Notes under the pieces: generated by a model
Seen by the model: the letters and a program-made list of their open reading frames with translations, nothing else
What the model was told of the DNA's origin: nothing
Database searches by the model: none
In this document: positions 17,058 to 45,802 of the stretch, in pieces
How the letters are laid out: each line of letters starts with the position of its first letter
Position numbering within the stretch: position 1 is the stretch's first letter
Made by a program: the position numbers and the translations under genes
Assembly: GCF_024398015.1 (NCBI RefSeq)
Contig: NZ_CP073747.1
Coordinates: 1,808,501 to 1,872,500 of the forward strand
Reading direction: 5' to 3'
DNA from: Kordiimonas sp. SCSIO 12610
Lineage (GTDB): Bacteria > Pseudomonadota > Alphaproteobacteria > Sphingomonadales > Kordiimonadaceae
DNA: 64,000 nucleotides

Positions 17058-18587
17058 TTAAAATCTCTCCGGAAGGTGATCGTCCTCTACAAGGTCAGTA
17101 AAGCGGGTAACTTCTTTGATAAAGCCAAGGCGCACGGTTCCAACGGGGCCGTGACGTTGTTTGCCGACGATCACCTCGGCTTTGCCATACAGATTTTCCA
17201 TCTCTGCCTGCCACGTTTGATGCTTTTCGTGGTCCGAAAGCGATGGCTCTTCCTTTTCCTTATAATATTCTTCGCGGAACACGAACATGACCATATCGGC
17301 ATCTTGCTCAATCGATCCTGATTCCCTGAGGTCTGAAAGCATAGGGCGTTTGTTTTCGCGCTGTTCTACCTGTCGGCTGAGCTGGGATAGGGCAAGGACA
17401 GGAACATGAAGTTCTTTTGCTAAGCCCTTAAGGCCACGAGTAATTTCAGAAATTTCCTGAACGCGGTTTTCACTGCCGCCTTTGCCGCCACCACGAAGCA
17501 ACTGAAGATAGTCAACCACGACGAGGCCGAGGTTATGTTGCCTTTTAAGGCGGCGGGCACGGGTCCTGAGCCCTGCGATCGTAAGCGCTGGCGTATCGTC
17601 AATGAAAAGAGGTAAATCCTCCATTTCCATGGCGGCGCGGGCGATAGCCTCAAATTGATCCTGTGTCAGCTTACCTTGGCGCATTGCGTGGGATTGTATG
17701 GAGTCTGGGCCATTATAATGCTCGTTTGCGCGGTCAGAGAGAATACGGGCAGCAAGCTGATCTGCTGACATCTCCAAGCTAAAGAAGCAACAAACTGCGC
17801 CTTTGCTCATATTCATGTCGACGCCGGCAACCAAATCCTGATGATATCTGTGCGCGGCATTGAACGCGATGTTGGTCGCGAGCGCAGTTTTCCCCATCGC
17901 AGGGCGGCCCGCAAGGATCATAAGGTCTGAATTGTGAAGGCCGCCAATCTGATCATTAAGTTTCGTAAGGCCCGTGGTTACACCGGACAGGCTATCTGGG
18001 TCCTTGAAGGCATTTTCGATGTTTTCAACGGCGACCTTTAGGGCGCGGCTGAATGTTTGAGCACCTGATTCTGATTGCCCCAGTTCGGCGAGGTCAAACA
18101 GTTGTTTTTCAGCCGCAGAGATTTGCTCCATCGCTTCTTCATCAATTGGTGCATCATACGCATCATTGACCATCTCTTCGCCAATTTGAATCAGCGAACG
18201 GCGCATTGCGAGGTCATAAATCGTACGACCATAGTCTTCGGTGTTGATGATGGTTGCAGCACTTGCGGCCAATCTTACTAAGTACTGCGCGCCGCCTACA
18301 TCAGATAGCGCCTCATCATTATCAAAATATGGTTTTAATTTAACGGGGTCAGCAATCTGGTTCTTGTCCATCAGTTTAAGAACAGACTCGTAAATACGAC
18401 CATGTACGGGCTCAAAGAAATGTTCAGGCTGAAGAAACCCCTGAACCTTTTGTGCGGCTTCATTGTTGACAAGAATCGCCCCGAGAATAGCTTGTTCAGC
18501 CTCTAGGTTATGTGGGGGCTGTCGGTAACCAAGGTTGCCAGTTTCGTCATTATTGCCGTTCTCATCATTTGCCTGAACAAGTTCCAT
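17058..18587 (-). CDS. dnaB: Replicative DNA helicase
   Basis: Hexameric 5'-3' helicase that unwinds DNA at the replication fork and recruits primase. The 509 aa protein has the N-terminal domain (about residues 23-130, PPHNLEAEQAILGAIL) and a RecA-like C-terminal domain with Walker A GRPAMGKTAL (about 228), Walker B VVVDYLQLL (about 360) and arginine-finger region KGLAKELHVPVLALSQLSR. No intein is present. Its upstream region holds three DnaA-box matches, listed separately, and a putative promoter. In this clade dnaB follows rpsF-rpsR-rplI, as here, but a terminator separates them. Confidence 0.97.
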   Translation of the reverse strand: MELVQANDENGNNDETGNLGYRQPPHNLEAEQAILGAILVNNEAAQKVQGFLQPEHFFEPVHGRIYESVLKLMDKNQIADPVKLKPYFDNDEALSDVGGAQYLVRLAASAATIINTEDYGRTIYDLAMRRSLIQIGEEMVNDAYDAPIDEEAMEQISAAEKQLFDLAELGQSESGAQTFSRALKVAVENIENAFKDPDSLSGVTTGLTKLNDQIGGLHNSDLMILAGRPAMGKTALATNIAFNAAHRYHQDLVAGVDMNMSKGAVCCFFSLEMSADQLAARILSDRANEHYNGPDSIQSHAMRQGKLTQDQFEAIARAAMEMEDLPLFIDDTPALTIAGLRTRARRLKRQHNLGLVVVDYLQLLRGGGKGGSENRVQEISEITRGLKGLAKELHVPVLALSQLSRQVEQRENKRPMLSDLRESGSIEQDADMVMFVFREEYYKEKEEPSLSDHEKHQTWQAEMENLYGKAEVIVGKQRHGPVGTVRLGFIKEVTRFTDLVEDDHLPERF

Positions 18588-18625
18588 TCGGTCACCATTT
18601 TAAAGAGGTCAAAACGTGTCAATGT

Positions 18626-18654
18626 TCTACAACAGCTTTGCTGCTTTGTGGCAA
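18626..18654 (-). promoter_or_regulatory. Candidate dnaB promoter
   Basis: On the minus strand TTGCCA (18654-18649) and TGTAGA (18631-18626) are 17 bases apart, about 40 bases upstream of the dnaB start. The match to the -35/-10 pattern is only fair. Its place between the DnaA boxes and the gene supports it. Confidence 0.35.
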
Positions 18655-18665
18655 ATATCTTTTTG

Positions 18666-18709
18666 TTTTACACACTATCTTTTCCACAGGGGGATAATTC
18701 TGTGGATAA
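18666..18709. promoter_or_regulatory. Cluster of three DnaA-box matches upstream of dnaB
   Basis: Three 9-mers fit the DnaA-box consensus TTWTNCACA within 44 bases: TTTTACACA (18666-18674, plus), TTTTCCACA (18680-18688, plus) and TTATCCACA (18701-18709, minus), the last a perfect strong box. The second and third also form an inverted repeat CCACAG/CTGTGG. They lie in the intergenic space between the rplI terminator and the candidate dnaB promoter, so a DnaA-controlled dnaB promoter is likely. A replication origin is possible but less likely. Confidence 0.7.
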
Positions 18710-18749
18710 CTTTCTATCTTGAAAACTTAATGTTTGAGCACAATAAAAA

Positions 18750-18771
18750 AGGGAAGCAAAATGCTTCCCTT
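18750..18771 (-). terminator. Terminator of the rpsF-rpsR-rplI operon
   Basis: On the minus strand a GGGAAGCA stem with a three-base loop pairs with TGCTTCCC and is followed by a T run (complement of the A run at 18745-18750). It lies 30 bases beyond the rplI stop. Confidence 0.85.
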
Positions 18772-18800
18772 GATTACAAATAGAAATTGGAAAAAACAGC

Positions 18801-19400
18801 TTATTCAGCGTCAGTTTTCTCTTCTTCTGTTTCTTCTGTTGTTTCTTCAGAAGCTTCAACTTCCTCAGCAACATCTTCAACGAACTCTTCTTCAGCTTCT
18901 TCTTCGTCGCCGCCAACAATAGCGCCGCCGATTTCAAACTGTGTTTCTGCTTCCGCTTCAGAGCGAGCAATGTTCACAACAACAGTTTCAGAAACTTCAG
19001 GGTGAAGCGTGATTACAACATCATGAAGACCAAGAGTTTTGATCGCACGATCAAGAACAACCTGGCTACGGCCGATTTTAACACCAGCCTCTGTAACGGC
19101 TTCAGCGATATCGCGGCTTGTTACAGAACCATATAGTTGGCCTGATTCACCAGCAGAGCGAACCATTACGCATTTAAGACCAGCCATCTGGCCAGCAACT
19201 TTTTCTGCTTCTTCGCGACGCGCAAGGTTATCTGCTTCAAGGCGAGCACGTTCGTTTTCAAAAAACTGCTTGTTGGCTTCAGTTGCGCGCATAGCTTTCT
19301 TCTGTGGTAGAAGGAAGTTACGAGCAAAACCATCTTTAACAGTGACTTCATCGCCCATCTGGCCGAGTTTCGCTACTCGCTCTAGTAGGATGACTTGCAT
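18801..19400 (-). CDS. rplI: 50S ribosomal protein L9
   Basis: Binds 23S rRNA domain V at the base of the L1 stalk. The N-terminal rRNA-binding domain is typical ([24 protein letters not shown], then [12 protein letters not shown]), linked by a long charged helix (about 50-75) to the C-terminal domain (to about 148). The protein has 199 aa, about 50 more than E. coli L9, because of an acidic tail rich in Glu ([20 protein letters not shown] onward). Such tails occur in alphaproteobacterial L9. It is 21 bases downstream of rpsR. Confidence 0.97.
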
Positions 19401-45142: not shown

Positions 45143-45802
45143 ATGCAAATTCCTTTTACTCTTGATCATGCAACGAGTTTTGCACTGGAAGATTTTATTG
45201 TCTCCCCAACCAATCAACTTGCATATGACATAGTTAAGGCTTGGCCGGATTGGCCCTATCATATAACTGCATTGGTTGGTCCTGAAGCATGTGGGAAAAC
45301 ACATTTAGCGCATGGCTGGGCCAAGCTGTCAGGTGCAGTTGTTTATGAAGGTGCAGCCTTTCCAGATGTTACCATAGACCCAGAATTATCGCATATTGTT
45401 ATTGATAACATTGCTGCTGATGCGTTCGACGAAAATAAATTGTTCCATTTGATTAATTGGACCAAAGAAAATCAAACGAGTGTTCTTTTGACGTGTCGTT
45501 ACGAGCCGACCCGCTGGGATATTAAACTTCCTGATCTTCGGTCCCGATTGTCGCTTATTCAGGTTGCGAATATTAACGCACCAGACGATCAATTGCTTAT
45601 GATATTGCTCTATAAGATGTTTTCCGATCGTCAATTAACTGTTGACCTGTCTGTCATCAATTTTATTGTGCCCAGAATGGAACGCTCCTTTGCTGCTGTG
45701 CGTGAACTGGTTATAGCGATGGATGCCAAGGCACTTTCCAGAAAAACTGGAATTTCAATTAAAATAGCGAAAGAATGTCTTAAAGACATGAAAATGCTAT
45801 AG
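45143..45802 (+). CDS. hdaA: DnaA homologue HdaA, regulatory inactivation of DnaA
   Basis: Binds the replication clamp and stimulates ATP hydrolysis by DnaA, which limits re-initiation. The 219 aa protein has the AAA+ domain only: Walker A GPEACGKT (46-53), Walker B IVIDNIA (about 89-95), and arginine-finger region PDLRSRLS (about 130). It lacks the DNA-binding domain of DnaA. The N-terminus MQIPFTL resembles a clamp-binding motif. It starts 20 bases after the permease gene and precedes ppk. Confidence 0.92.
   Translation: MQIPFTLDHATSFALEDFIVSPTNQLAYDIVKAWPDWPYHITALVGPEACGKTHLAHGWAKLSGAVVYEGAAFPDVTIDPELSHIVIDNIAADAFDENKLFHLINWTKENQTSVLLTCRYEPTRWDIKLPDLRSRLSLIQVANINAPDDQLLMILLYKMFSDRQLTVDLSVINFIVPRMERSFAAVRELVIAMDAKALSRKTGISIKIAKECLKDMKML

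Follow-up and report, generated by a model that had tools for sequence, protein, structure and literature searches.

Directly upstream of dnaB in Kordiimonas sp. SCSIO 12610 lies a compact array of four 9-mers that, judged from its sequence, probably regulates the dnaB promoter: DnaA would bind there and activate dnaB. Through this array DnaA probably controls the amount of helicase. An earlier note on this DNA—a stretch of 64,000 nucleotides, hereafter the window—had proposed that DnaA activates or represses dnaB and so ties helicase supply to initiation. Control of dnaB by DnaA is supported here by conservation within the family Kordiimonadaceae, by class-wide enrichment of DnaA boxes at dnaB, and by reports in Caulobacter crescentus and mycobacteria; the binding itself, its ATP dependence and its direction (i.e., activation over repression) we infer.

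A four-box array between rplI and dnaB

The array (18665–18712, minus strand; 48 bp) was delimited by an ungapped alignment of 22 family sequences and by a profile match of 48 bits. It sits between a predicted intrinsic terminator (18749–18771, minus strand) downstream of rplI (ribosomal protein L9; 18801–19400, minus strand; PF03948 and PF01281) and dnaB, which encodes a replicative helicase of 509 aa (17058–18587, minus strand; PF00772 and PF03796). The three 9-mers fitting TTWTNCACA that the earlier note had singled out were all confirmed within a span of 44 bp: TTTTACACA (18666–18674, plus strand), TTTTCCACA (18680–18688, plus strand) and TTATCCACA (18701–18709, minus strand), each identified by sequence match and by the family alignment. 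A fourth, positionally conserved 9-mer, TTATCCCCC (18689–18697, minus strand), had been overlooked; it is two mismatches from TTWTNCACA and is recognized through the family alignment.

Read in the orientation of dnaB (minus strand), the boxes run TTATCCACA (box 1), TTATCCCCC (box 2), then the inverted TTTTCCACA (box 3) and TTTTACACA (box 4), i.e., a forward-forward-inverted-inverted layout. Because box 2 abuts box 3, the center of the array is an inverted pair. Boxes 1 and 2 are separated by 3 bp, and this supports the DnaA-array model since a spacing of 2–3 bp is given, in the part of the source cited here, as best for cooperative binding of ATP-DnaA (PMC8682772). The boxes of the array also match the five copies of TTATCCACA at the apparent oriC of the same genome.

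Clustering beyond chance

Across the whole window TTWTNCACA is common, with nine matches against 8.4 expected from shuffles and hence no overall enrichment. This commonness is a point in favor of the boxes having arisen by chance, or of the array serving another protein or a leader RNA. We nonetheless consider this reading highly improbable, given the conservation of the array (see below) and its specificity genome-wide. Three of the nine TTWTNCACA starts fall inside 36 bp (chance approximately 8e-5 under random placement), and among the 76 TTWTCCACA sites in the 3.50-Mb genome, pairs less than 200 bp apart occur only at oriC (five boxes, 170.8–171.1 kb) and at dnaB (two boxes), with 0.08 pairs within 50 bp expected genome-wide. 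DnaA boxes are thus present in the dnaB promoter region beyond chance expectation. As for a leader RNA, the array precedes the predicted promoters and so should lie outside the mRNA, and an Rfam search of 18500–18900 returned nothing above the gathering score (six weaker matches were found).

GANTC and the CtrA-type pair TTAA-N7-TTAA are cell-cycle site motifs. In the 200 bp upstream of dnaB, GANTC occurred at 9 of 30 loci, in scattered positions, and was absent from the window's sequence, while the CtrA-type pair was found at none of the 30.

Conservation of the array in Kordiimonadaceae and beyond

The boxes are conserved upstream of dnaB in relatives, whether scored by alignment, by profile or, across the class, by individual box content. 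Our family sample comprised 25 genomes, 23 of which yielded a dnaB locus with upstream sequence, and at 22 of these 23 loci the 48-bp array ahead of dnaB could be aligned without introducing a gap; the remaining locus (L023, from genome G008) carries only a broken array and was left out of the profile model, which therefore has 22 rows. Within the array the family sequences share a mean pairwise identity of 0.733, as against 0.271 and 0.274 in the two intervals before it and 0.301 in the one after; conservation does not extend past the 48 bp. The check put forward in the earlier note, conservation of its three 9-mers, gave a divided outcome: the array as a whole is kept upstream of dnaB across the family, but the 9-mers themselves vary more than had been assumed. 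Box 3 fits TTWTCCACA exactly in 18/22 rows, 15/22 have the one-mismatch TTATCCCCA as box 1, and box 4 (TTTTACACA in the window) is degenerate in most, where rows from a single genus are not independent of one another. Box 2, in those relatives that bear TTATCCACC, is one mismatch from TTWTNCACA. The array belongs to dnaB, with or without rplI nearby; it is kept in four family loci that have no rplI in the flank (L002, L015, L021, and L022).

An earlier strict array pattern hit 9 of 41 genomes (one site apiece) but not the array of the window itself; a sequence-only profile built from the 22 family rows took its place. This profile was searched in 41 whole genomes (25 from the family and 16 from other families of the order). 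Its top match lay at dnaB in 23/25 family genomes; a match at dnaB was absent from the other two, i.e., G008, with its broken array, and G024, in which neither dnaB nor the array was found. In the window's own genome the dnaB site scored 48 bits and the next listed match 14.7 bits. Among the order's other families, the top match was at dnaB in 4/16 genomes (G029, G030, G032, and G038, none of which, like G006 of the family, was part of the profile model), though in G032 it covers only 18 of the 48 positions, and the remaining 12 had no array match at dnaB in this search.

Collections of dnaB loci gave a concordant placement. The profile matched 5 of 53 loci from titled records, each time upstream of dnaB, and four of these correspond to genomes of the model while one is a further Kordiimonadaceae record (L037). 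It also matched 4 of 79 dnaB loci elsewhere in the class, again each upstream of dnaB (L144, 33.7 bits; L162, 22.1 bits; L166, 19.7 bits; and L151, 15.7 bits). As these four lie outside the order, the array layout, or part of it, is older than the order but rarely recognizable beyond it.

The sole other strong match in the family was a near-copy of boxes 2–4 in G013 (L221, 1306–1338; 32.4 bits), located approximately 120 kb from that genome's dnaB and followed closely by the start codon of a phage-like ORF (PHROG terminase-like). Possibly, this represents a mobile element exploiting DnaA control.

DnaA boxes at dnaB across the class

We searched 142 genomes of the class, 138 of which had a dnaB match, and took 79 upstream regions (hand-picked down the list, avoiding contig ends), 78 of which were long enough for analysis. 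Strict TTWTCCACA boxes occurred within 250 bp upstream of dnaB in 18/78, while the next three intervals held 0, 0, and 1, and shuffles gave a mean of 0.23 and a maximum of 1. Since strict counts understate the class signal, we added a weight-matrix test, with the matrix typed from the box consensus and 100 shuffles per sequence. By this test 48/78 class genomes had a significant box between −200 and 0 of dnaB at p ≤ 0.05 (26 of them at p ≤ 0.01), compared to 5/78 and 6/78 at p ≤ 0.05 in the next two intervals upstream; 30/78 had no significant box at dnaB. As a further control, the upstream regions of the best 30 recA loci by score gave 4/30 by weight matrix and 0/30 by strict boxes.

Outside the class, 40 of 109 other-Pseudomonadota genomes with a dnaB match were chosen, hand-spread over families, and boxes at dnaB were found in 6/40 at p ≤ 0.05 (three at p ≤ 0.01), with 1/40 in each control interval. 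By these box frequencies, dnaB seems to be under DnaA control in many Alphaproteobacteria but in few of the other Pseudomonadota sampled. Within the class, strict boxes in titled loci were present in 3/13 Caulobacteraceae, 7/20 Acetobacteraceae/Rhodospirillales and 0/4 sphingomonads, and a TCCACA core stood, by eye, at one aligned place in 13/13 Caulobacteraceae and 19/20 Acetobacteraceae/Rhodospirillales. From the box counts and the aligned cores, box layouts differ between families.

Strict boxes at dnaB were also seen in 11/26 loci outside Alphaproteobacteria (L085–L111, mostly Bacteroidota by title), and the weight matrix gave 14/26 at p ≤ 0.05 in this set vs. 6/25 and 0/25 in the next two intervals, which we treat as a lead only.

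Promoter geometry and the direction of control

Two promoters are predicted between the array and dnaB. The candidate of the earlier note, TTGCCA-17-TGTAGA (18626–18654, minus strand; −35 at 18649–18654, −10 at 18626–18631), is plausible but ranked second in a sigma-70 matrix scan, below the predicted alternative TTGACA-17-AATGGT (18594–18622, minus strand; −35 at 18617–18622, −10 at 18594–18599). The −35 of the former begins 10 bp past the array, and the latter, the window's top-scoring promoter, lies 42 bp past it. Across the family, the top predicted −35 by the same matrix starts 12–14 bp after the array in 12/22 sequences (shuffles: mean 1.1, maximum 4) and elsewhere in 10/22. L015 carries 10 extra bases and its top −35 falls at 23 bp after the array, i.e., at 13 + 10. 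By the 12–14 bp geometry, the array would span approximately −96 to −49 relative to the start site, a place that would suit an activator.

Since the array lies upstream of the predicted −35 and not over it, activation is favored. DnaA monomers would occupy the four 9-mers just upstream of the dnaB promoter, with box 3 as a strong anchor and the weaker boxes filled cooperatively as DnaA-ATP rises. DnaA held at the upstream face of the promoter could then aid RNA polymerase in starting dnaB, and helicase supply would rise along with initiation competence.

It is also conceivable, though in our judgment unlikely, that DnaA bound to the array is a repressor of dnaB, or works in both directions by nucleotide state. 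E. coli nrdAB offers the precedent, being activated or repressed according to the level of DnaA-ATP (PMC8203912); moreover, the promoter is uncertain in the window and in some relatives, and the array could seed a spreading filament. Set against this are the 12/22 sequences in which the array ends short of the top predicted −35 without covering it, and the account of M. tuberculosis in the cited part of PMC7738170, where a DnaA mutant with reduced binding upstream of dnaB under-expresses dnaB, i.e., weaker DnaA binding accompanies lower dnaB expression.

Replication origin and chromosome position

DnaA boxes beside a replication gene might also mark a replication origin or the relic of one, and the earlier note had left an origin here open. 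To this reading we give next to no probability: GC skew shows no negative-to-positive turn at the array but changes sign at approximately 171 kb, outside the window, at five TTATCCACA boxes adjoining hemE, and the window itself is close to the terminus. The stretches sampled between 350 kb and 1.93 Mb have positive skew; those at 2.10 Mb and beyond have negative skew, save for one positive stretch at 2.80 Mb. The apparent oriC holds its five perfect TTATCCACA copies in 288 bp (L113, 4819–5106; G000:C1:170818-171105), between a PF03618 gene and hemE (PF01208), followed by rho, mnmG, and a parA-like gene (these last three named by eye). An origin at dnaB is thus rejected on the evidence of GC skew and of an oriC 1.66 Mb away. 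The dnaA gene itself is at the contig start, 171 kb from the apparent oriC, and the contig's final 8.65 kb, which would precede dnaA if the contig is circular, contain no TTWTNCACA.

Measured from hemE, the window's dnaB lies at 0.946 of the half-chromosome, and all five closed family genomes (G000, G003, G007, G009, and G020) place dnaB at 0.87–0.99. Ten class genomes outside the family gave 0.51–0.96 of the half-contig, and three more, calculated by hand from rounded sizes, gave approximately 0.19 (G069), 0.39 (G137) and 0.92 (G093); hemE was present in 18 of the 20 genomes of this sample, and its use as an origin mark was checked in the window's genome only. Given the values for G069 and G137, remoteness of dnaB from the origin does not hold as a general rule.

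Comparison with known systems

Several features recall sites at which DnaA is handled, and the array might mainly serve as such a site (DARS, datA or titration-like), with its dnaB neighborhood incidental. Like the E. coli DARS core, in which box I is opposite to boxes II and III, the array is intergenic and has several boxes with an inverted pair (PMC5742627); it is the only TTWTCCACA cluster in the genome besides oriC; and it stands at 0.87–0.99 of the half-chromosome in 5/5 closed family genomes. DARS, as described in the cited part of the same source, has three core boxes, functions in DnaA reactivation, and at DARS2 involves IHF and Fis (PMC5742627), whereas in the Kordiimonadaceae array the boxes number four and their distance to the predicted dnaB promoter is often fixed. 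As the array also persists where the flank lacks rplI, and as simpler boxes recur at dnaB in other families, we regard a handling site with an incidental neighbor as quite unlikely. Decidedly improbable, too, is a combined role for the Kordiimonadaceae array, as a handling site for DnaA and at the same time the switch through which DnaA acts on dnaB. In that case a head-to-head DnaA pair would sit on the abutting inverted boxes, and late replication of the array, next to the terminus, would double or clear it and thereby reset DnaA and the expression of dnaB before the following round.

The reading we prefer, a DnaA-activated dnaB promoter, has known counterparts. In C. crescentus, of the same bacterial class, DnaA boxes are likewise predicted upstream of dnaB, which was identified in the DnaA regulon (PMC8203912, citing Hottes et al., 2005). 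Caulobacteraceae differ, however, in layout: the four-box profile found no match in 13 titled loci, and their aligned upstream regions carry, by eye, one TCCACA core, often then a TGTGGA-like core. For M. tuberculosis and M. smegmatis, in vitro binding of DnaA to a region ahead of dnaB is reported, and the homologous regions were recovered by ChIP-seq (PMC7738170); this site, like the proposed one in Kordiimonadaceae, lies upstream of dnaB, is from another phylum, and is likened here without regard to box layout. The E. coli nrdAB and dnaA promoters similarly bear DnaA boxes and have an output set by DnaA level and nucleotide (PMC8203912), with other target genes and box layouts than the Kordiimonadaceae array. 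Our literature search found no paper on Kordiimonas with DnaA and none, by title or abstract, on a four-box array at dnaB. The earlier note had further stated that the window encodes HdaA; this is plausible only, the ORF in question (45143–45802, 219 aa) having a weak DnaA-ATPase match of 22 bits against a cut-off of 23.

Implications

As DnaA control of dnaB has been reported in Caulobacter and mycobacteria, the control itself would be of a known kind. What is new here, from comparison of the sequences, is an unusually well-defined, rigid layout that is kept across the family and echoed across the class. Within this one bacterial class, such control of dnaB seems to be widespread. The array offers a compact, rigid element for testing DnaA as an activator. 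If DnaA does drive dnaB, then the initiator would set the supply of the very helicase that it loads—a feed-forward coupling.
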